Positions 44,260 to 58,316 of a stretch of 64,000 nucleotides of DNA are shown piece by piece; the first letter of the stretch is position 1, and every line of letters begins with the position of its first letter. Made by a program: the position numbers and the translations under genes. Origin of the DNA: Balneolaceae bacterium (GTDB taxonomy: Bacteria; Bacteroidota; Rhodothermia; Balneolales; Balneolaceae); assembly GCA_006969905.1 (NCBI GenBank), contig CP030887.1:2152001-2216000 (forward strand). Direction: 5' to 3'. The notes below the pieces were generated by a model. That model saw nothing but the letters and a program-made list of their open reading frames with translations. It searched no databases and was not told where the DNA came from.

Positions 44260-47200
44260 TTGTATATAAAACAAAGAGTTGTTTTAAGGTTGGTAAAATA
44301 CTCTCAAACAGTTTTTTCTCTTTTCAAGTTTATCGGTTTTGTGCTGTTTGCTATGACTATACCCAAAAACGGATACGCACAGGACATGGATGCGCCGGTT
44401 GATACATTAAACGTTATACCGGATTCTGCATTGGCAGGGATAAAATTCTTTTACCCTGGCGGGCAAAAAAGAACAGCTTTACTGAGTAATCAAAAGAAGG
44501 GGAATATTTATTTATTATTAGAGAATCAAATCCGAACTACCATCAAATGGGATTCTGCCAATACTTTCAAGATTGAGAAGTCTTTATTTGGATATTCTAC
44601 CTTTATTCCATCCGTTTTAGACAGGGAAAGCTATATTGCCTTAAAGAGAGAGGAACAAAAAAGATCAATACGCACAGAGTTAATTGAAGAAGGTAAAGCA
44701 CAGCAGGAACAGGGCAGGGGCTTACTGGATTTTAAGATAAAAGTACCCGGAGGAGAGCGCTCTGCATTTACGACCATTTTTGGTAAACCCGAAGTAAATC
44801 TTAGGGTAAATGGTACTGCTAATATGAATGTTGGTGCTTCAATCCAGAATGTTGAAGACACCAACCGCCCACCGGATCAATGGAGGCGGGTTGATCCTAC
44901 CTTTAACCAAAATCTACAATTGAATATACAGGGTACAATAGGTGATAAACTTACTATTGCAACTGATTGGGATACTGAACGGCAATTTGATTTCCAGAAT
45001 AGATTGAAGATTCGTTATGAAGGTTATGAAGACGAGATCATCAAATCCATCGAAATGGGTAATGTGTCCATGGAGACAGGGAACTCATTGGTTAGGGGTG
45101 GCGGGGCTCTTTTTGGAATAAAAGCTGTGTCAGAACTTGGCCCGCTGAAATTAACTTCTGTTGTTTCCCAGCAAAATGGCCAGAGCAATTCCCAAACTAT
45201 CTCCGGAGGATCGCAAGAGTTGTTCTTTGAATTACGACCTGCCGATTACGATGATGATCAACACTTTTTTGTAGATTTCTATAACCGTCAGGAGTTTGAA
45301 GGTAATCTGTCAAACCCAACATTACCGGGTATTGCCTATCAAATTGAAGAAATCAGGGTTTGGATAGAAGACACGCAAATAAGTACAGAATCTGATGCAG
45401 TACAGGCACTGGCAATGCTGGATCTTGGAGTGGTTGATAATGGAGATGGTACATACGGCTTTCCAAATACTGAACTAGATGATATTAATGATGCAAAGCT
45501 TGCTGAACTAAGATCTGAAAACAATATTGATGTGGAAGAGCTGCAACTTCCAAGCGGTATATATCAAAACAGTTATTATCGCCTGCTTGATCCCGATCAA
45601 TACGCAATCGATAAAAACCTGGGGATTATAAGTTTAAACAGAAGGGTGGGAAACCAGTCTTCTTTGGCAGTTTCTTTTACTTATAGAACATCAGACGGGC
45701 AGCAAGTTCAGGTTGGAGATATTAATGCCAATTCCGGTGGCTACACGTATTTAAAACTACTCAGGCCAAGGGATCTTGACCCTGCAAGAATCGATTGGCT
45801 GCTTACATTAAGAAATATCTATACGCTTGGGGTTTCGGGTGTAGAGCAAGATGGGTTTAACTTTGAAATTGAAGTAACCCGGGATAATATTTCGAGAACA
45901 AGAATTGAAGGTAGAGGCCCAACTTTACTCCAGGATTTGGGATTGGACAGATTGAACTCTAATGGTTCGATTGGTTCAGATAACATCATTGATTTTGATC
46001 AAAGTGCTATGGTTTTTAACCCGAATACGGGTAAAATCATGTTTCCATACCTGGAGCCCTTTGGTGATCGCATAGATTCTCTTGTAAGTGATCTTCCTAC
46101 CGATCAGTCTACACTTATTTTTAGCGAGTTGTACGATGATAAAGTTATTGAAACCCAGCAAAACTCTAAGAATAACTTTTTTAAGATCAATGGCTCTTCT
46201 AAAGGTGGCGTATCCTCTACATTTTTTCTAGGTGAGTTAGTAGAAGGTTCGGTAAAGGTATTCGCAAATGGTGTAGAGTTAACGGAAGGTAGTGACTATG
46301 AAGTGGATTACTCTTTTGGAATGATTTCCATTTTAAATGATAGGTATATCGCGCGCGGTCAGGATTTACGTATAGAGTATGAGAACAACCAGTTTATAGC
46401 CATCGGCCAAAAAAACTTTACAGGGGTAAGAGCAGAATACACAGTTAACAGAGACATAAGCATTGGGAGTACATACTTCAGGTTAAACGAACAGCCCTTA
46501 AGTGATAAAATAAGAATTGGTAACGAGCCTATTAATAACACGGTTCTGGGTTTTGATGCAAATGCCCGGTTTGATACCCCATGGCTTACAAGAGCCATAG
46601 ATAAAATTCCACTTCTTCAAACTAAGGAAGCATCCAATATCAGTTTTAGTGGAGAATTTGCTCAATTGAGGCCAGGTGTAGCACAAACTAATGCAGTAAG
46701 AGATGCCATAGATAATAATGAATTATTCGGCGATGAAGAGCAGGGGCTTGTATTTATAGATGATTTTGAAGGCTCGGAATATACCATACCTTTTGACTTT
46801 GCCAGCCGCTGGTTCTTACCGTCTCCACCGGCAGCAGTACCCGGTTATGCCCCTGATGAATCTCATTTCCAGCCTGATGGGGGAGATCCCAGCAGTGCTA
46901 CAACGGATAAAGTAGCTCGGGCTGATTTAAGAGCCCAGTTTTCCTGGTACGAAGTTCCCAGAAATATTGAGAACATTTTGGGAAACGTGGTTAGAACTGA
47001 TGAAGCGTCCATTGTGAGATTGACTGACGTATTTAGGGGCCGGCAAACCATTGAGCAGGACAACAGGATTATCCCTCTTGATATATATTACAATCCACTA
47101 GAAAGAGGGCCTTATAATTACAACCTGGACTTAAAAGAAGTTCTGGAAAACACACCTGAAAGAATGTGGGGGGGTATGACAGCACCCTTACCACCCGGGC

Positions 47201-50200
47201 AGCAGGATTTAGTACAGAATAACATTGAGTTTTTGGAATTTTGGGTTCAAAGCATTTTACCGGATGGCCAAAGCCCGGAAGGATTGGAGGAAGACTATGC
47301 GGGTAAAATTTACATTGACCTGGGAGTTATTTCCGAGGATGTGATTCCCAATGGTAGCCAGAATAGTGAAGATGGCCTTGCACGTGATTTGGAAAGCCTT
47401 GAGCTTGATTTAATAGACCGCTCCTATATTCCGGCAGATCCGGTTGCACCTTTGGGTGAATTCTCTAACGTGAACAGAAATTTAGAAGATGTGGGATTTG
47501 ATGGTGTTCCCAATACCAATGGATTTCAACCAAACCTTACAGAAACTCAGCTTTTTAGTGAATTTATTGAAAAGATGCGAACAGACTATGGAGAAGAAAG
47601 CGAAGAGTTTCAGAAGATTGTTGCAGACCCCTCAAATGATGATTATGTGTTTTATGGAGAGTCTATAGTAGACGATTTAAAACTTCATGAGAGATTTCAC
47701 CGGCTGAGAGGATATTACGATGGTAACACCCCGGTTGCTGGAGGCAATGATAAATTGGCTGTTACGCTAAAACCTGATAACGAGGCATTGATAACACCTT
47801 CCAGTATTCAGCCCAATAATGCTTACTATCAATATGAAATCAATTACAATCCTGCAAAGCCATCCGACCTGGAAATAGGTTCGCCGGGTACTTTTATTAT
47901 TGATAAGGTTGACAGAGGGAGTCAAACCACTACCTGGAGATTAATTCGGATACCTATTACTGAGTTTACAAGACAAGTGGGCAATATAAACGGCTTCAGA
48001 AATATTACTCATATGCGGATATGGATGTCTGGGTATAAGAAGCCTTTTACCCTACGTTTTGCTACCCTTGAATTTTTGGGCAGCCAATGGAGGAAGGTTG
48101 AAGAAATTACCGAAGCACGTACTTCTAATGCTGAATTTAAAATATCCACTATCAATATTGAAGAGAATGCAAGCCGGGAACCTATCCCATATCGCCAACC
48201 TGAAGGGTCCATTCGGGCTATTAACAGGGGGGCACAAATTCAATCGCTGGCAAATGAGCAATCACTGGTTTTAGATGTTGAAGACCTTGAAGCCGGTCAA
48301 ATTCAAATGGTAAAGAGAGTATATCCGAATGGGCTTAATTTTCTTAATTACTCTAATGTACGCATGTTTGTGCACGGAGAAGGATTTGATGAACGGGGAG
48401 AAGCGGAATTGGTAATCCGTTTTGGCAGTGATTTAGAGAATGATTTTTATGAATACCGACAGCCTGTTACTCCTTCTGATCCGGACTATCCCTATGGGGA
48501 TTTTGACCCAAATGAAAGAGGGCGACTAAATGAGGATGCAGCCCAGGTATGGCTGTATGAAGAAAACAGCATGAATATTGTTATTTCGGCATTTAATGTA
48601 TTAAAACAGGCAAGGGACCGGGCAGGAGAAGATCCCGGAGAACTATTTGAGAGGAATGGTTTAATAGGTGAAGAGGGGGCTCCGGGGGCAGTTTTGGCAA
48701 TGCGCGGTAATCCTTCCTTAGATCGTATTACAGAACTGGCAATAGGGATAAAGAATCCGTATGAGCAGGGAGTACCCGGAGTAGGCCGACCAGTTATAAA
48801 TGCCCAATTTTGGGTCAATGAGTTACGTGTATCAGGATTCGATAATGAGAATGGCTGGGCAGCAAATGCAAAAGCCAGCTTCAAACTGGCTGATTTTGCT
48901 ACAGTAAATACCAATCTTACTCGGCAAACCACTGGTTTTGGTGGGATTGAATCAAGACTTGGGGAACGGAGCATGTCTGATGATTTGGGCTATTCAGTAA
49001 GCTCTACGGTAAATCTTCATAAGCTTGTACCAGATAGATATGGGTGGAGTTTCCCGGTAACAGTATCGACCAGAAAAACGACTTCTACTCCACGGTTTTT
49101 ACCGGATCAGGGCGACATCCGGTTAGATGATTTTATAGATGCTGTTAACATTGATGAAACGCTAACAGAAGCTGAAAAGGAAAGAACTATTGATCAGAAA
49201 ATATCTGACATCCAAACGATTACTGAAAATTACTCTCTCAATATTTCGAATATTTCGAAAAGAAACTCAAAAAGTAAATTAGCAGAATATACTTTGGATA
49301 ATACCCGGTTGAGCTATGTTTATAATCAGGGATATGCACGAAACCCACGTTTAGACTTTCAGAATAACTGGAATTACACGGCCGGTATCAGTTACAATTT
49401 GAGTTTTAAAAATGTGAAACTTTTCAGGCCGTTCAAGTTTACAGAATCTGTACCGGGCCTGAATTTGCTTTCCGGTTTACGATTAGGCTATATGCCTACC
49501 AGTATCAGTGCAAATGCATCATTGGCTCGAAATTACAGGGAAAGTCGACAGGCTTTGTTAGGCTCCGATGAGAAACTGCGCCTTGATCAGAACCATTTAT
49601 TAACACAAAAGTCCTCTTTTGGAATAAACTATAATCTTACTCCTTCCATCACAACTTCATTTAGGTCGAATACCAGCTTTGACCTTACACAGGCAGGGCA
49701 AAAACCATCAGGCAATACAGGAGTGGACAGTCTCACTTTCGATGTGATTCCAACTTTTGAGGTACTTGATGGAGTACTGTTCGATACACTTACCGCCCGG
49801 CGCTCCAGTTATTCAGAGACTTTTTCAGCTAGCTGGAGGCCACGGTTAAACAGGATAAAGTCCTTGGATTGGATGACTTATTCAGCCTCCTATGGGGGTG
49901 GTTTTCAATGGATAAACAGTGGTGAAGGCACGGGTTTGGGAGCAAGGGTTTCGAACAGTTTCCAGCTTGATAATTCTTTCAAATTTGATACTGATAAATT
50001 GATTAAGAAAATTGGTTTTGTAGAAAAGTTGCGTAAAAAAGATGCTGATGAAGAGAGGGCAAGAACACAGAGGAAAAGAAATGCAGAGAGGGATACTACA
50101 AAAACCCCTCCCGATTTGATAGGTGGAGCTCAATTTTATGGAAGAAAGGTTTTGTTGGGATTATTTAGTATGCGTAGCATAGACCTTTCTTACAAAAAGA

Positions 50201-51510
50201 ATAAATCCTCGGGGCAGGCCGGTTACGATGGGGACGCACCAATATACTATGCGTTTAACGATCCGGGTTCTCAACGCATATCTCCAAATATCGGATACAG
50301 AATGGGTTTAACAGAGAGGATTTCAAGAGATCAACTGATTGGTTCAAATAATACAAATCAGGCTATAGGATTGGGGGTTAATAATTCTTATTCCGACAAT
50401 ATAACATGGGGAACTCAACTCAATTTGTTTAAGAATATTACGATTGACCTTGATTGGTCAACCCGGTGGGATGAAAGGAGAACAGAAAATCTGACGCTGA
50501 CGATAGATGATGAATTTACATCCATCGCTACAGCTTCAGGAGATATAAGTTCCTCTGTTTGGTCATTTGGTAACGGCTATGAGCAATTATTTAAATCGCA
50601 GCTTTCTGCTGCTTTTGCAGATTTGGATGGGAGTACCATTAATGATGAAACCGGTAATAATGATGGGAAAACAGTACTTGAAAGGGTTAGTTTACAGCAA
50701 GACTTTAGAACAAGCTATTTGGGAGGTAATGCCAATGCAATAGGCAGGAAGGGGTTCACTCCCATACCAAAGCCCAGCTGGAGAGTAACGTGGCAGGGAA
50801 TAGAAAAGCTGATTCCTTTTATTGGAGATAAAATAAGCCGTGCTTCCTTAACGCATGGTTACAGAGGATCATACAGGTTGGGCTGGCAATTAAATACCCA
50901 GGCAGGTACAGAAATTTCCCAAACTGTGGGTTCATTTACGGTTATCAGTACACCTGATGAGTTTGAGCCATCAACGATATCGATTGATCAAAGATTCAGC
51001 CCTTTGGTTCAGCTTAATCTTACATGGAAGTCAAACCTGCGAACAAACTTGGGATACGAGACAAGTACCATTACCAGCTTAACAATGTCTAGTAATACAA
51101 TTTCAGAACGAAAATCACGGGGCTTTAAATTCAATATCAACTATACATTCAGGAAAGTGAGAATTCCGATTTTCCCGAAGTTAAAGAACAATATAGATTT
51201 TGCATTGAGCGGTACCTTTAGTGAAGACTCCGATCAGAATTTTGTTCTTCCTAATGATCTTAACCGGGCTTTGAAGGAAGTGGGGGAGAAAGGTACCGAT
51301 GTGGATCAATACGACTTTATCCCGACACAGGAAACAGGGCAGCAGCGATTTAATGGCAGCCTGGTTATTGGGTACAGAATTTCCGCAAATATGAATTCTA
51401 ATTTTGAGTACACATATAACAGGGTAATACCTACCAATGGATCAACAATCCCTCCAAGAACCAATCAGGAGATCAGGTTCAATATCCGGATTGCTATTCG
51501 TTCAAGATAG
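44260..51510 (+). CDS. sprA: SprA/Sov, outer-membrane translocon of the type IX secretion system
   Basis: 2416 residues, the size of Flavobacterium SprA (about 2400), the giant 36-strand barrel that carries T9SS cargo across the outer membrane. Family features: LDFKIKVPGGERSAFTTIFG and RVNGTANMNVGASIQN early, IGDKLTIATDWDTERQFDFQN, the VFIDDFEGSEYTIPFDFASRW plug-region motif (in parts), NNIEFLEFWVQ, and long beta-rich tracts to the terminal Arg-rich RFNIRIAIRSR. The start is uncertain: the TTG at 44260 or the TTG at 44290 both give a signal peptide ending NGYAQ, and neither has a clear ribosome-binding site. The end overlaps lnt by 17 bp. Its cargo in this window includes the DUF1501 protein. 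Confidence 0.95.
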   Translation: MYIKQRVVLRLVKYSQTVFSLFKFIGFVLFAMTIPKNGYAQDMDAPVDTLNVIPDSALAGIKFFYPGGQKRTALLSNQKKGNIYLLLENQIRTTIKWDSANTFKIEKSLFGYSTFIPSVLDRESYIALKREEQKRSIRTELIEEGKAQQEQGRGLLDFKIKVPGGERSAFTTIFGKPEVNLRVNGTANMNVGASIQNVEDTNRPPDQWRRVDPTFNQNLQLNIQGTIGDKLTIATDWDTERQFDFQNRLKIRYEGYEDEIIKSIEMGNVSMETGNSLVRGGGALFGIKAVSELGPLKLTSVVSQQNGQSNSQTISGGSQELFFELRPADYDDDQHFFVDFYNRQEFEGNLSNPTLPGIAYQIEEIRVWIEDTQISTESDAVQALAMLDLGVVDNGDGTYGFPNTELDDINDAKLAELRSENNIDVEELQLPSGIYQNSYYRLLDPDQYAIDKNLGIISLNRRVGNQSSLAVSFTYRTSDGQQVQVGDINANSGGYTYLKLLRPRDLDPARIDWLLTLRNIYTLGVSGVEQDGFNFEIEVTRDNISRTRIEGRGPTLLQDLGLDRLNSNGSIGSDNIIDFDQSAMVFNPNTGKIMFPYLEPFGDRIDSLVSDLPTDQSTLIFSELYDDKVIETQQNSKNNFFKINGSSKGGVSSTFFLGELVEGSVKVFANGVELTEGSDYEVDYSFGMISILNDRYIARGQDLRIEYENNQFIAIGQKNFTGVRAEYTVNRDISIGSTYFRLNEQPLSDKIRIGNEPINNTVLGFDANARFDTPWLTRAIDKIPLLQTKEASNISFSGEFAQLRPGVAQTNAVRDAIDNNELFGDEEQGLVFIDDFEGSEYTIPFDFASRWFLPSPPAAVPGYAPDESHFQPDGGDPSSATTDKVARADLRAQFSWYEVPRNIENILGNVVRTDEASIVRLTDVFRGRQTIEQDNRIIPLDIYYNPLERGPYNYNLDLKEVLENTPERMWGGMTAPLPPGQQDLVQNNIEFLEFWVQSILPDGQSPEGLEEDYAGKIYIDLGVISEDVIPNGSQNSEDGLARDLESLELDLIDRSYIPADPVAPLGEFSNVNRNLEDVGFDGVPNTNGFQPNLTETQLFSEFIEKMRTDYGEESEEFQKIVADPSNDDYVFYGESIVDDLKLHERFHRLRGYYDGNTPVAGGNDKLAVTLKPDNEALITPSSIQPNNAYYQYEINYNPAKPSDLEIGSPGTFIIDKVDRGSQTTTWRLIRIPITEFTRQVGNINGFRNITHMRIWMSGYKKPFTLRFATLEFLGSQWRKVEEITEARTSNAEFKISTINIEENASREPIPYRQPEGSIRAINRGAQIQSLANEQSLVLDVEDLEAGQIQMVKRVYPNGLNFLNYSNVRMFVHGEGFDERGEAELVIRFGSDLENDFYEYRQPVTPSDPDYPYGDFDPNERGRLNEDAAQVWLYEENSMNIVISAFNVLKQARDRAGEDPGELFERNGLIGEEGAPGAVLAMRGNPSLDRITELAIGIKNPYEQGVPGVGRPVINAQFWVNELRVSGFDNENGWAANAKASFKLADFATVNTNLTRQTTGFGGIESRLGERSMSDDLGYSVSSTVNLHKLVPDRYGWSFPVTVSTRKTTSTPRFLPDQGDIRLDDFIDAVNIDETLTEAEKERTIDQKISDIQTITENYSLNISNISKRNSKSKLAEYTLDNTRLSYVYNQGYARNPRLDFQNNWNYTAGISYNLSFKNVKLFRPFKFTESVPGLNLLSGLRLGYMPTSISANASLARNYRESRQALLGSDEKLRLDQNHLLTQKSSFGINYNLTPSITTSFRSNTSFDLTQAGQKPSGNTGVDSLTFDVIPTFEVLDGVLFDTLTARRSSYSETFSASWRPRLNRIKSLDWMTYSASYGGGFQWINSGEGTGLGARVSNSFQLDNSFKFDTDKLIKKIGFVEKLRKKDADEERARTQRKRNAERDTTKTPPDLIGGAQFYGRKVLLGLFSMRSIDLSYKKNKSSGQAGYDGDAPIYYAFNDPGSQRISPNIGYRMGLTERISRDQLIGSNNTNQAIGLGVNNSYSDNITWGTQLNLFKNITIDLDWSTRWDERRTENLTLTIDDEFTSIATASGDISSSVWSFGNGYEQLFKSQLSAAFADLDGSTINDETGNNDGKTVLERVSLQQDFRTSYLGGNANAIGRKGFTPIPKPSWRVTWQGIEKLIPFIGDKISRASLTHGYRGSYRLGWQLNTQAGTEISQTVGSFTVISTPDEFEPSTISIDQRFSPLVQLNLTWKSNLRTNLGYETSTITSLTMSSNTISERKSRGFKFNINYTFRKVRIPIFPKLKNNIDFALSGTFSEDSDQNFVLPNDLNRALKEVGEKGTDVDQYDFIPTQETGQQRFNGSLVIGYRISANMNSNFEYTYNRVIPTNGSTIPPRTNQEIRFNIRIAIRSR

Positions 51511-53768: not shown

Positions 53769-53808
53769 CAAGCATTCCATTATTAAGAAACACTAAAGAC
53801 GATTGAAA

Positions 53809-54189
53809 ATGAAATTTAAGCCATCAGGACTAAATCACATCACTATAAGAGTAAACAGAATTGATGCATCTAAAGAGTTTTACGGAGATATATTAGGCCT
53901 GGAATTGGTGCGCACTATGGGCCAGAGCATGGCGGTATACAACATTGGTAATGGAGATACTTTGGTGATAGTAGAAGCAGAAACCAGTTATGATCCAACA
54001 TCCAGAGACTTCAGGGTTGACCATTTCGGTTTCTACGTTGAATCTCCCGAGCAAGTAGATGAACTGGCTTCCTACTTCCGCGATAAAGAAGTTACCATTA
54101 TGAGTGGCCCTGCTAACCGGAAAAAAGGGCGGTTTTTATTTGTAGCTGACCCTGACGGGAATATGATTGAATTCTTCTATGAAGAGTGA
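53809..54189 (+). CDS. VOC (glyoxalase/dioxygenase fold) family protein
   Basis: 126 residues from the ATG at 53809 (MKFKPSGLNHITIRV); a TTG two codons earlier is equally in frame. Two beta-alpha-beta-beta-beta modules of the vicinal oxygen chelate fold are visible. Metal-ligand positions are His in LNHITIRV, His in VDHFGFYV and Glu in NMIEFFYEE, with the family's DPDGN turn just before. Family members include glyoxalase I, dioxygenases and antibiotic-resistance proteins, so the substrate cannot be assigned. Divergent from rsmI and convergent with the LCIB-like gene (3 bp between ends). Confidence 0.85.
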   Translation: MKFKPSGLNHITIRVNRIDASKEFYGDILGLELVRTMGQSMAVYNIGNGDTLVIVEAETSYDPTSRDFRVDHFGFYVESPEQVDELASYFRDKEVTIMSGPANRKKGRFLFVADPDGNMIEFFYEE

Positions 54190-54192
54190 TGC

Positions 54193-54888
54193 CTAAGGGT
54201 ATACTCTGAAATCCATATTTCTTATTTCAAAGTAGTTTTCAATATCCCAATCGGTGTTGATTACAACGCCCCCCATGAGGTAAATTTTCAGATCGGTAAG
54301 CTCGTTTTCAATCGCTTCCAGTATCCGGGTAAGCTTCAGGTGAATGGCATCATAGGCAACATCAGTAGCTTTTTTTAAAGGATAAGAATCACTGAAAATC
54401 TCCTTTCTCTTGTGGTAAAGATGCTGGATAACCCGGGCTTGCTGATAGTCTAACGGATTACTGGTAGGCAGCTCCTCTTTATGTTCAATATTTGATAATG
54501 CGCCTACAAGAGAACCACAGCAGGTTGAAAGCCCGAACTGGTGATGCCGGTTCACTTGTCCCAGTTGTCCATCCCTTGAAACCCCGATATGGGGCCCGTA
54601 CATAATAATGGCTGCTCCATGCGTAGGTACATGGCTTAAAAAAGCTTTCATACCTGTAATTCCGGCAAAAGGTAAGCCCGAAATTCCTCCAAGAATAAAA
54701 GGGCCCGGCCCGGCAAAAATATCGTTAAACTGGTGGAATACATTATTGACCTCATCACTACAAAAAGACGTAGCCCAGAGAGTATTTTCGGGATCCAAAC
54801 CGCAGTCTTTAAAGTCATCAAGGATTTGATCTTCAAGTTCTGAAATAATAATTGCGTTGGGGAAATGGATTGGAATAGCGTTATACAT
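54193..54888 (-). CDS. LCIB-type (beta/theta) carbonic anhydrase-like protein
   Basis: 231 residues matching the low-CO2-inducible LCIB/C carbonic anhydrase domain: SFCSDEVNN (Cys43, Asp45), ILGGISGLPFAGITGMKAFL then SHVPTHG (His86), MYGPHIGVSRDGQLGQVNR and STCCGSLVGAL (Cys123/124). In LCIB enzymes a Cys-His-Cys triad binds zinc and a CxD aspartate gates it; all have counterparts here. The reaction would be CO2/bicarbonate interconversion. No signal peptide, so cytoplasmic. An AAGGA site lies 8 bases from the ATG. It is divergent, across 132 bp, from sbtA-sbtB (bicarbonate uptake), which supports the call. Family recognition is from memory of motifs; activity is untested. Confidence 0.8.
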   Translation of the reverse strand: MYNAIPIHFPNAIIISELEDQILDDFKDCGLDPENTLWATSFCSDEVNNVFHQFNDIFAGPGPFILGGISGLPFAGITGMKAFLSHVPTHGAAIIMYGPHIGVSRDGQLGQVNRHHQFGLSTCCGSLVGALSNIEHKEELPTSNPLDYQQARVIQHLYHKRKEIFSDSYPLKKATDVAYDAIHLKLTRILEAIENELTDLKIYLMGGVVINTDWDIENYFEIRNMDFRVYP

Positions 54889-54949
54889 ACTAGGGTTCCT
54901 TTTTCAGGAATCTTGTTCGGTTTTTTTATTTATCTGAAGTGAATTGTGG

Positions 54950-54957
54950 TATCTTTG
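54950..54957 (+). promoter_or_regulatory. TATCTTTG -7 promoter box for sbtA-sbtB
   Basis: Perfect TAnnTTTG element 63 bases before the sbtA ATG; the -33 position has TTTATTT rather than TTG. It lies in the 132-bp region shared with the divergent carbonic anhydrase-like gene. Confidence 0.45.
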
Positions 54958-54986
54958 CTCGAATTTAAGGAAAAGCCGGATTTTTT

Positions 54987-55017
54987 ATATCAGGCAATAA
55001 TTTCTAGACACTGATAT
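54987..55017 (+). promoter_or_regulatory. Leader hairpin next to the sbtA start codon
   Basis: ATATCAG (54987-54993) pairs with CTGATAT (55011-55017) around a 17-base loop. The 3' arm ends three bases before the sbtA ATG, so the folded RNA would cover the ribosome entry site. No Shine-Dalgarno sequence is evident there. Confidence 0.4.
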
Positions 55018-55020
55018 TTA

Positions 55021-55977
55021 ATGGACTCTTTGTTATCCAACTTTGCATCTCCGGTTGTGCTGGCTTTTGTTTTGGGAATAGTGGCAAAAGTAGTAAAAAG
55101 TGACCTGGAGATACCACGCACTATATACCAGGGTATATCAATTTATTTGTTACTTGCCATCGGATTGAAAGGGGGAGTAGAGCTTAGCAAAACACCCTTC
55201 AACGAGTTCTTCCTACCGGCGGGCATTACACTTTTCTTAGGTGTTCTTACACCACTTATTGCTTTTGCTGTTCTTAAATATATCGGTAAAATGGATTTAA
55301 CCAATTCAGCAGCGGTGGCAGCGCATTATGGTTCTGTATCTGTAGTTACCTTTATTGCTTCGGTCAGTTACCTGGAGGCTCAGGGCGAAAACCCGGAAGG
55401 GTTTATGCCGACACTGGTTGCCATATTGGAAATACCGGGTATTATCGTTGCTCTTCTGATTCCTCAAATCGCAAATAAAAACGGAGGATCCTTCAAAAAG
55501 GCCCTTCATGAAGTCATTACCGGAAGCAGTATTGTTTTGCTACTTGGAGGTTTGATAATCGGATATATAGCCGGACCTGTGAAGTTTGAATCAGTCAGCC
55601 CGTTTTTTGTGAGCGGCTTCCAGGGAGCACTGGTTATTTTTCTTTTAGAGCTGGGAATGGTTACCGCCAAGAGATTACAGGATTTAAGAAAAGTGGGTTT
55701 TTTTCTTGTTGGCTTTGGGATACTGATTCCGATCTTTCATGGCGTATTAGCAATTTGGTTAGGACTGATGGCAGGTCTCAGTATCGCAGGTGCTGCGGTG
55801 CTTGCTGCAATGGTTTCCAGTGGTTCGTATATTGCGGCACCGGCTGCAGTGAGGATTGCACTACCCAAAGCAAGCCCCACACTTTATTTGACAGCTTCAT
55901 TAGGAATTACCTTTCCCTTCAATATTGCGCTAGGTATTCCGCTTTATTATGTAATTGCTCAATGGTTAGGAGGTTAA
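55021..55977 (+). CDS. sbtA: SbtA-type sodium-dependent bicarbonate permease
   Basis: 318 residues, about ten membrane helices in two repeats, with the family start LLSNFASPVVLAFVLGIVAK and DLEIPRTIYQGISIYLLLAIGLKGG (in parts), the HYGSVSVVTFIASVSYLE segment near the substrate site, and SSGSYIAAPAAVRIALPKA in the second half. Cyanobacterial SbtA is a high-affinity Na+/HCO3- symporter of about 370 residues; this is the shorter bacterial form. It begins the sbtA-sbtB transcript (1-bp gap) opposite the LCIB-like carbonic anhydrase. Expected role: bicarbonate import for anaplerotic carboxylation or pH control. Confidence 0.9.
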   Translation: MDSLLSNFASPVVLAFVLGIVAKVVKSDLEIPRTIYQGISIYLLLAIGLKGGVELSKTPFNEFFLPAGITLFLGVLTPLIAFAVLKYIGKMDLTNSAAVAAHYGSVSVVTFIASVSYLEAQGENPEGFMPTLVAILEIPGIIVALLIPQIANKNGGSFKKALHEVITGSSIVLLLGGLIIGYIAGPVKFESVSPFFVSGFQGALVIFLLELGMVTAKRLQDLRKVGFFLVGFGILIPIFHGVLAIWLGLMAGLSIAGAAVLAAMVSSGSYIAAPAAVRIALPKASPTLYLTASLGITFPFNIALGIPLYYVIAQWLGG

Positions 55978-55978
55978 C

Positions 55979-56281
55979 ATGGCATTAGTAGAATTATATT
56001 TGGTAACAATTATCACAGAGCGGCTTTTACGGGATGAAATTCTCGAAAAAATGACCGAACTGGGCGCTAAAGGTTTTACTTTAACAGAAGCTACCGGCGA
56101 AGGCTCCAGGGGTATTCGGGCAAGTGATTGGGAAGGTAAAAACGTAAAAATCGAAACAGTAGTGAGTGAAGAAGTAGGTAACTCAATTATCGATTTTATT
56201 GCAGAATCCTATTTTGAAAACTATGCGGTCATTACCTATTCCCATCCGGTAAATGTAGTCAGGGGCGATAAGTACATTTGA
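55979..56281 (+). CDS. sbtB: SbtB-like PII-family regulator of bicarbonate transport
   Basis: 100 residues with the PII ferredoxin-like fold: LVTIITERLLRDEILEKM, LGAKGFTLTEATGEGSRG leading into the T-loop (about residues 40-56) and VKIETVVSEEVGNSIIDFIAE. GxGSRxxR before the T-loop is the SbtB-type variant of PII. SbtB trimers bind adenine nucleotides (cAMP, AMP, ADP, ATP) and close SbtA. The protein ends at HPVNVVRGDKYI and so lacks the C-terminal CGPxGC redox loop of cyanobacterial SbtB. It starts 1 bp after sbtA. Confidence 0.88.
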   Translation: MALVELYLVTIITERLLRDEILEKMTELGAKGFTLTEATGEGSRGIRASDWEGKNVKIETVVSEEVGNSIIDFIAESYFENYAVITYSHPVNVVRGDKYI

Positions 56282-56594: not shown

Positions 56595-58316
56595 ATGTCG
56601 ACTTTTAATGAACTGGGCCTTAAGCAAGAACTGCTTGAAGCCGTAGAACTATTGGGTTTTACAAACCCAACCAAAGTGCAGGAACTGGCTATACCTACGA
56701 TTCTTGCTTCTCAAAGAGATTTAGTTGCACTGGCTCAGACCGGAACGGGCAAAACAGGGGCTTTCGGATTACCAAGCCTGCAGCAAATAGATGTGAACTC
56801 TGATGCCGTTCAGGTTTTGGTGCTTTCGCCAACCCGGGAATTAGCTATTCAGATTGCAAAGGATATGAAAGCTTTCGCAAAAAAGATGAAAGGTGTGAAA
56901 ACCGTAGCTGTTTACGGAGGGGCAACTATTTCCACGCAAATAAAGGCACTTCAAAACGGCTGCCAGGTTGTGGTAGGTACACCAGGTAGAATGCTCGACC
57001 TGATCCGTAGAAGAAAGCTGGATGTAAGCAGTGTTCGCACGTTGATACTGGATGAAGCGGACGAGATGTTGAATATGGGTTTCCAGGAAGACCTGGATGC
57101 TATTTTAGAAGGTACTCCTGAAGGAAAGCAAACTTTGTTGTTTTCGGCCACAATGCCTAAGCAGATAGCTAAAATGGCTAAAAAGTACATGCGTGATCCT
57201 GAAGAAATTGAAGTGGGAGAGCGCAATTCAGGAGCAAAGAATGTGGAACACCACTTTTATATGGTGCATGCCAAAGACCGTTTTGAAGCTTTGAAACGAA
57301 TTGTGGATATGAACCCGGACGTGTACGGGATTGTTTTTTGCCGAACCCGGCGCGAAACGGCGGAAATTGCATCAAAACTTAATAAGGATGGCTATGATGT
57401 GGATTTGCTGAACGGTGATCTTTCCCAGGCACAGCGTGATGATGTGATGAACCGCTTCAGGACCAAAGAGCTACAGCTGTTAGTGGCAACCGATGTAGCT
57501 GCACGGGGTTTGGATGTGGACAGCCTTACTCATGTTATCAACTTTAATCTGCCTGATGATCTTGAGGTATATATACATCGCAGCGGAAGAACCGGGCGTG
57601 CAGGAAAAACAGGGATTTCTATTTCAATTGTTCATACCAGGGAAATGCGAAGAATCCGGGATTTAGAAAGAATGTCGGGTAAAGAATTCATCAAAAAAGA
57701 AGTACCCACAGGGGAAGAGATATGTGCCATCCGCATGCTGGATTTAATTGACACAGTGAAAGAAACCAAGGTAAATGAAGAGCAGATACAGAAGTTTCTA
57801 CCAAATGCCCTTGAAAAGCTTGCTGACCTGGAAAGAGACGAACTGATTAAACACTTTCTATCCGTTGAGTTCAATCATTTTTTGGAGTATTACAAAGATG
57901 CTTCCGATTTAAATGCCAAAGGAGGAGGAGAAAGAAGAAAAGGAGAATCAAGACGAGGAGACAGGGCTGAAAAAGGGAGACGAGGAGGTGGAAGAGATCG
58001 GGATTTCAGCTCTAATGGTTACGAGCGATTTTTCATTAACGTTGGCCGTCGTGATGGTTTAAACCCGGTACGATTAATGGGCCTGATAAATGAAAACCTG
58101 AGAGGTACCAAGCCAGATTTTGGCAAGATTGATGTACAGAATAACTTCTCCTTTTTTGAAGTGGAAGCAGGATTTCAAAATGACTTGATTTATAGCGCAA
58201 AAGGTTCAAAATTTGAAGGCAGAGACGTGTCGATAGAGACTGCCCAACAGGAAAAGAAAAGCAGGGGAGGTTCTTCAAAAAAGCGGAAAGGGAAAAAGAG
58301 TAAACCAAAAAAATAA
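56595..58316 (+). CDS. deaD: DEAD-box RNA helicase (DeaD/CsdA-like) with C-terminal DbpA-type domain
   Basis: 573 residues. All helicase motifs are present: Q motif region FTNPTKVQELAIP, AQTGTGKT, PTRELAIQ, GTPGRMLD, DEADEM, SAT, then VFCRTR, ATDVAARGLDV and HRSGRTGRAGKTG. After a charged, Arg/Gly-rich linker (about 435-475) comes a DbpA/CsdA RNA-binding domain (about 478-550, FFINVGRRDGLNPVRLMGL) and a Lys-rich tail. Such enzymes unwind rRNA during ribosome assembly and mRNA at low temperature. The next gene starts 6 bp downstream. Confidence 0.95.
   Translation: MSTFNELGLKQELLEAVELLGFTNPTKVQELAIPTILASQRDLVALAQTGTGKTGAFGLPSLQQIDVNSDAVQVLVLSPTRELAIQIAKDMKAFAKKMKGVKTVAVYGGATISTQIKALQNGCQVVVGTPGRMLDLIRRRKLDVSSVRTLILDEADEMLNMGFQEDLDAILEGTPEGKQTLLFSATMPKQIAKMAKKYMRDPEEIEVGERNSGAKNVEHHFYMVHAKDRFEALKRIVDMNPDVYGIVFCRTRRETAEIASKLNKDGYDVDLLNGDLSQAQRDDVMNRFRTKELQLLVATDVAARGLDVDSLTHVINFNLPDDLEVYIHRSGRTGRAGKTGISISIVHTREMRRIRDLERMSGKEFIKKEVPTGEEICAIRMLDLIDTVKETKVNEEQIQKFLPNALEKLADLERDELIKHFLSVEFNHFLEYYKDASDLNAKGGGERRKGESRRGDRAEKGRRGGGRDRDFSSNGYERFFINVGRRDGLNPVRLMGLINENLRGTKPDFGKIDVQNNFSFFEVEAGFQNDLIYSAKGSKFEGRDVSIETAQQEKKSRGGSSKKRKGKKSKPKK

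Follow-up and report, generated by a model that had tools for sequence, protein, structure and literature searches.

The 64,000-nt stretch of a Balneolaceae bacterium genome analysed here (GenBank assembly GCA_006969905.1, contig CP030887.1, positions 2,152,001 to 2,216,000; hereafter the window) carries, at its positions 54193–56281, a gene for an LCIB/LCIC-type carbonic anhydrase that is divergent from the genes for a permease of the Sbt_1 (SbtA) family and an SbtB-like PII protein. We found that the linkage of the LCIB and SbtA genes among relatives is real but patchy, and we give about an even chance to the reading that the three genes form a module by which a heterotroph supplies and balances its inorganic carbon (bicarbonate). 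The protein families are known ones, and neither their combination nor an LCIB-SbtA-SbtB linkage was found described in the open-licence PMC literature searched.

The first-pass annotation had assigned the three genes to the LCIB, SbtA and PII families. Open reading frame (ORF) calling confirmed all three at exactly the coordinates it had given, and the Pfam profiles agreed with each assignment. The LCIB gene (54193–54888, minus strand) encodes 231 residues and matched LCIB_C_CA (PF18599) with 180.3 bits (E 4.3e-53; cut-off 25), residues 15–228 aligning to positions 4–222 of the 223 in the profile. The permease gene (55021–55977, plus strand; 318 residues) matched Sbt_1 (PF05982) with 379 bits (E 2.3e-113; cut-off 27), and the PII gene (55979–56281, plus strand; 100 residues) matched P-II with 68.7 bits (E 6.2e-19; cut-off 25). 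A search of NCBIfam returned no match for the LCIB, permease or PII protein. The LCIB and permease genes stand back to back with 132 bp between their start codons (54889–55020), and the permease and PII genes are separated by 1 bp.

Neighbourhoods in other genomes were analysed with our own ORF calls and hidden Markov models built from the fetched loci, and selected proteins were checked against Pfam. Among 92 genomes of the family, SbtA was found in 26, LCIB in 46 and both in 12, namely the host (G000) and G073, G123, G135, G139, G187, G231, G263, G265, G297, G305 and G308. In 11 of these 12 the two genes are divergent and lie no more than 2.7 kb apart, and a PII gene follows SbtA in all 11; since the linkage holds in 11 of the 12, we concluded that the pairing is not due to chance, and the conserved linkage expected by the first-pass annotation exists within one family. 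The two genes are directly adjacent in six genomes, with 82–153 bp between them. A LysR gene and an isocitrate dehydrogenase gene lie between them in four others (G123, G139, G231 and G265), and a LysR gene alone in one (G305, a genome with 7% contamination in which the contig is 4.6 kb long).

Several observations weigh against a joint function. In G297 the LCIB and SbtA genes lie on separate contigs; the LCIB sequence of this genome is divergent and forms a long branch. LCIB occurs without an Sbt_1 match in 34 of the 46 family genomes that have it, including all seven congeners searched, and the earlier view that LCIB is tied to SbtA has to be given up. SbtA occurs without LCIB in 14 of 26 family genomes, and in one of them (G261) the SbtA and PII genes occupy the usual syntenic site without an LCIB gene. 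The named LCIB loci from a scan of public genomes were the best 80 of 283 confirmed ones; SbtA is beside LCIB in eight of these 80, all eight corresponding, by contig coordinates or lengths, to family genomes already counted, and no pairing outside the family was found among them. In the phylum set, LCIB was also seen at three loci that do not belong to the family (L057, L058 and L070), none of which has SbtA alongside.

These patterns bear directly on a different explanation, that the genes serve two independent functions: LCIB would simply act as cytosolic carbonic anhydrase in this family, and the SbtA and PII genes would have been inserted alongside and inherited with no joint function. 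Besides the LCIB genomes that lack SbtA and the arrangement in G261, the position of LCIB in SbtA-less congeners is in its favour, as it stays there between the same two flanking genes. In the window these are a gene for a glyoxalase-family protein identified by Pfam (53803–54189, plus strand), which is convergent with LCIB and has its stop codon 3 bp from that of LCIB, and, downstream of the PII gene, a gene recognised by similarity within the loci, which we take to encode a DEAD-box helicase (56595–58316, plus strand). Both are syntenic neighbours outside the module, and the glyoxalase gene is near LCIB in 14 of the 21 family loci fetched. On the other hand, the LCIB-SbtA pairing is also found with other flanks in L122 and L131, and it survives under different flanks in L133 and L220 as well. 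In a tree of 93 LCIB proteins, the label of being linked to SbtA requires four changes, all forced by supported branches, compared with a mean of 10.6 after shuffling, in a tree whose bootstrap had not settled and in which long branches were flagged. Permeases of the same clade also lie near beta-carbonic anhydrases in nine genomes of nine genera. With both sides considered, we regard independent functions as rather doubtful.

The LCIB protein itself gave a consistent picture. Its sequence matched PtLCIB4 of Phaeodactylum (E 1.2e-28), and further solved LCIB proteins were also matched. The predicted model (predicted local distance difference test score, pLDDT, 92) superimposed on PtLCIB4 with Z 29.2 and a root-mean-square deviation (rmsd) of 1.9 A over 225 aligned residues, while Z reached up to 12.5 for classical beta-carbonic anhydrases. 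The residues C43, D45, H86, H100, R114 and C124, putatively of the active site, are invariant in all 24 LCIB proteins from the host genome and its relatives; a subset of these Cys and His positions presumably binds zinc. The window protein thus shares with the LCIB/LCIC family, including Chlamydomonas LCIB, the Pfam family, the fold and the Cys, Asp, His and Arg positions, and it differs from the algal proteins in being a 231-residue bacterial form, encoded next to a bicarbonate-type transporter by a genome that lacks a RuBisCO large subunit. Inspection of its N-terminus revealed no hydrophobic stretch; it is therefore probably cytosolic, and we consider it a probable cytosolic converter of CO2 and HCO3-.

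The activity of LCIB proteins is itself a matter on which reviews disagree. In one review, three structurally characterised LCIB homologues are reported to be without activity (PMC5876011), and in another PtLCIB3 and PtLCIB4 are reported to be active, PtLCIB4 apparently constitutively (PMC9614477). The window protein carries Ser directly after C43. The database entry of a PtLCIB4 S47R variant had led us to suspect that this Ser makes the protein inactive; we dropped this idea because wild-type PtLCIB4 has the same Ser and is among the proteins reported as active in the latter source.

To place LCIB among the carbonic anhydrases of the family, we compared its distribution in the 92 genomes with that of the beta-carbonic anhydrase family PF00484, which was found in 42. 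Beta enzymes with PF00484 scores of at least 169 bits were defined as signal-less (20 genomes), as 19 of the 20 proteins have no N-terminal hydrophobic stretch and the start of the remaining one is uncertain. Those with scores of at most 147 bits formed a low-scoring group of 28 proteins in 27 genomes; a 79-bit fragment in one genome (G274) was placed in neither group. LCIB and a signal-less beta enzyme occur together in only one of the 92 genomes (Fisher p 4.7e-6), and when the 66 better genomes were taken, LCIB was present in 35, the signal-less enzyme in 18 and both in one (p 2.0e-6). These tests ignore relatedness, and a single genus accounts for 11 of the 20 genomes with a signal-less enzyme, which lessens their weight. 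No exclusion was seen for the low-scoring group, which is present in 16 of 46 genomes with LCIB and 11 of 46 without it (p 0.36). Of the 28 low-scoring proteins, 11 N-termini were examined: eight are signal- or lipobox-like, two (in G042 and G264, both genomes without LCIB) have no such stretch, and one has an uncertain start; among the 17 outside this inspection there may still be a signal-less enzyme in a genome with LCIB. Neither LCIB nor a signal-less beta enzyme was found in 27 of the 92 genomes, gamma-type carbonic anhydrases not having been searched for.

Because of this near-exclusion, LCIB is probably the cytosolic carbonic anhydrase of the Balneolaceae, with or without SbtA. Two genomes of the window's family and order (G199 and G119) have a signal-less beta enzyme beside SbtA and the PII gene, and neither has an LCIB match. 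The host also possesses a beta-carbonic anhydrase (G000:C1:2913740-2914192), which belongs to the low-scoring group; its N-terminus is lipobox-like (FGACTN), and it is therefore probably outside the cytoplasm.

Some other surroundings of LCIB were noted among the 80 named loci. In other Bacteroidota a gene for a PhoX phosphatase is near LCIB in eight loci, and a CobW/COG0523 gene with strong scores in four, which suggests metal or phosphate limitation. A gene of about 560 codons near LCIB in these bacteria had been taken for a SulP transporter; the proteins scanned with Pfam were PhoX (four loci) or an amidohydrolase (one locus). A transporter of the SulP (sulfate permease) family is directly beside LCIB in two loci, from metagenome-assembled genomes of Gilvibacter and Calditrichaeota.

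The permease was modelled with a pLDDT of 86, and its best structural relative was SbtA of Synechocystis (8zor; Z 41.5, rmsd 2.2 A, 315 aligned residues, 30% identity), the next family listed being LYCHOS with Z 23.2. In Synechocystis SbtA, docking placed HCO3- at Ser114, Tyr140, Ser324 and Ser327, and their Ala mutants retained about 10–40% of the activity (PMC8352866). The corresponding residues of the window permease are Ser107, Val133, Ser269 and Ala272; two of the four are kept and the equivalents of Tyr140 and Ser327 are replaced, which counts against bicarbonate as the cargo. This replacement is general: among the 80 Sbt_1 sequences of the loci, the Tyr140 equivalent is missing in 77, and Ala stands at the Ser327 equivalent in 76 of the 79 readable ones. 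The same three sequences hold both Tyr and Ser, and a very long branch parts them from the rest in a quick tree made without bootstrap. One of the three is a second SbtA of the host (G000:C1:545369-546307), which has all four site residues (FGAVS, Tyr, SSNSDIS) and its own gene for a 111-residue PII protein. Judged by these residues and the tree, the window permease is not a canonical SbtA and belongs to a clade of PF05982 separate from that of the host paralogue; the branch may bind bicarbonate in a different way or may carry other cargo. The name Na+/HCO3- permease in the first-pass annotation is right as to the Sbt_1 family but too firm as to the function. SbtA-like proteins as such are already known in heterotrophs (PMC10117731).

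These residues raise the alternative that permeases of this clade transport some other small anion, perhaps one linked to the tricarboxylic acid (TCA) cycle, with the anhydrase neighbours mattering only indirectly. The loss of the two site residues across the clade, the canonical paralogue in the same genome and the isocitrate dehydrogenase genes near the permease in some genomes, described below, are all in line with it. Against it stand the 16 of 61 Sbt_1 genomes that have a carbonic anhydrase gene within 5 kb, the PII partner, which is kept, and the fold, to which SbtA is by far the closest, although a shared fold does not show the cargo. We consider a different anion unlikely and take bicarbonate as the most likely cargo.

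The 16 genomes come from a survey of 247 genomes of the phylum, in which Sbt_1 was found in 61 and LCIB in 24. The neighbourhoods of all 61 were fetched; contig ends shorten some stretches (at least six), and the second Sbt_1 copy of one genome (G137) was left out. LCIB lies within about 5 kb of Sbt_1 in seven of the 61, each of them a genome of the window's family, and a beta-carbonic anhydrase in nine, which belong to nine genera. Chance placement of one gene in a 3.7-Mb genome predicts about 0.003 such cases per genome, or about 0.2 in all 61. In three of the nine the beta gene precedes SbtA on the same strand, with its end 17–44 bp upstream; in a fourth (G133) the called frames overlap. 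There are again points on the negative side: 45 of the 61 genomes have neither type of carbonic anhydrase within this distance, and seven of the nine neighbouring beta enzymes have a hydrophobic N-terminus and are therefore probably exported, so that they are not like-for-like with LCIB.

An isocitrate dehydrogenase gene is within 5 kb of Sbt_1 in seven of the 61 genomes, and the family set adds two more (G265 and G268). This gene group had been considered as catalase or SulP; a Pfam scan of the protein of one locus (L063) identified it as isocitrate dehydrogenase (PF00180 and PF18324), and the others were assigned by similarity. LysR genes that form one similarity group lie near Sbt_1 in ten genomes, and weaker or more distant LysR matches were seen in two more. 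In nine loci with a non-canonical SbtA the isocitrate dehydrogenase gene is near it, mostly with LysR alongside, and the LysR/isocitrate-dehydrogenase intergenic regions of the four family genomes that have both genes between LCIB and SbtA share the stretch TTAATTATTATTT. The host is different: it has no close relative of that LysR (best match 24% identity), and its PF18324 isocitrate dehydrogenase, at 2314258, has no such LysR beside it, so that a candidate pair in this genome was rejected. The neighbours of the relatives' permeases also show that the system is not confined to the 2.1 kb that had been proposed.

In Synechocystis, sbtA is repressed by NdhR, a LysR-type regulator that responds to metabolites including a TCA intermediate (PMC13249358). 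Several relatives resemble this NdhR/CcmR control in having a LysR-type gene near SbtA, in some cases beside the gene of an enzyme that makes 2-oxoglutarate; the window locus, which has no LysR, does not. That the LysR near the permease senses 2-oxoglutarate is a guess. A wider and more tentative reading, to which we give clearly less than an even chance, is that the non-canonical, PII-gated branch of SbtA-type permeases is a heterotroph module with interchangeable carbonic anhydrases, either LCIB or beta-type enzymes inside or outside the membrane. In several genera isocitrate dehydrogenase and a LysR possibly reading 2-oxoglutarate would be added, tying HCO3- handling to the TCA cycle as NdhR does in cyanobacteria, and in much of the family LCIB would take the place of the beta enzyme as carbonic anhydrase of the cytosol.

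The best solved relative of the PII protein over its full length is TTHA0516 (2cz4; E 5.7e-31), an entry named as a hypothetical protein and, judging from its locus tag, presumably from Thermus; structures of SbtB come next. The GEGSR motif is kept, and the T-loop is shorter than that of cyanobacterial SbtB. The C-terminal CGPxGC redox loop is present in some SbtB proteins only; it was not found in the window PII protein, and among 59 distinct PII sequences encoded near Sbt_1 genes, the window's included, not one has the pattern C.P..C. By analogy with cyanobacterial SbtA-SbtB, the protein would gate the permease. In other families, a shorter PII-like protein (93–97 residues, without GEGSR) follows SbtA in seven loci and is possibly another type of regulator.

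Compared with the cyanobacterial SbtA-SbtB system (Slr1512-Slr1513), the window set is alike in the full-length Sbt_1 fold, the PII-like gene directly downstream, GEGSR and the two docked HCO3- residues kept. Apart from the low identity, the Val and Ala replacements, the T-loop and the redox loop, it differs in the adjoining carbonic anhydrase and in the genome, which lacks a RuBisCO large subunit and DabA. The host genome, which is Balneolaceae-like, is a single contig with 99.77% completeness. The first-pass annotation had seen no sign of autotrophy in the window; this can be extended genome-wide for the RuBisCO large subunit, as PF00016 had no match in the host (control set, 5 of 14 positive), and for DabA; carboxysome and photosystem genes were not searched for. 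A CO2-concentrating mechanism serving RuBisCO was rejected on the absence of the RuBisCO large subunit and DabA (carboxysome genes again not having been searched for). The DAB/MpsAB proteins of heterotrophs are unrelated to those of the window, and DabA was not found in the host genome. They are alike in that an inorganic carbon supply outside autotrophy has been suggested for them (PMC13144422).

If the three genes do form a supply and balance module, the cytosolic LCIB carbonic anhydrase would keep CO2 and HCO3- in equilibrium for carboxylases that use bicarbonate. The SbtA-type permease would most likely import HCO3- with Na+ when CO2 is scarce, as in saline or alkaline water. On the cytoplasmic side, the SbtB-like PII trimer would gate it in response to adenine nucleotides. 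Divergent transcription would permit the two arms to be used alternately. An objection to this scheme is that CO2 would be expected to leak out where a bicarbonate importer works alongside a cytosolic carbonic anhydrase; a one-or-the-other pattern of the two is described for some autotrophic archaea and Firmicutes (PMC10880623).

The same genes could instead serve pH or Na+ balance, the anhydrase converting respiratory CO2 into HCO3- and H+ and the permease moving HCO3- with Na+ in or out. A carbonic anhydrase divergent from an HCO3--type transporter would fit such a role, and Rhodohalobacter halophilus is a relative with the pair. In addition, autotrophs with pH optima below 4.3 are reported to lack SbtA-family genes (PMC10880623). 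No antiporter gene is beside the pair in the window, which speaks against it, and we think this role quite unlikely.

In the intergenic region between LCIB and SbtA, TATCTTTG at 54950–54957 resembles the Bacteroidota -7 promoter box. TATCTT is present in five of the six direct LCIB/SbtA intergenic regions compared and is missing from that of G073. A sigma-70 promoter scan of the region gave nine sites, with 7.1 expected. Farther away in the window, a very large ORF of 2416 residues (44260–51510), presumably SprA, is a conserved neighbour in the loci of relatives.

With the reviews divided on whether LCIB proteins are active, the near-exclusion of LCIB and signal-less beta enzymes in one bacterial family is an independent genetic argument for LCIB as a carbonic anhydrase. 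The locus also parts two branches of SbtA that are lumped under one Pfam name and are both present in one genome. This one organism could therefore reveal whether the non-canonical branch moves bicarbonate, the canonical paralogue serving as an internal control.

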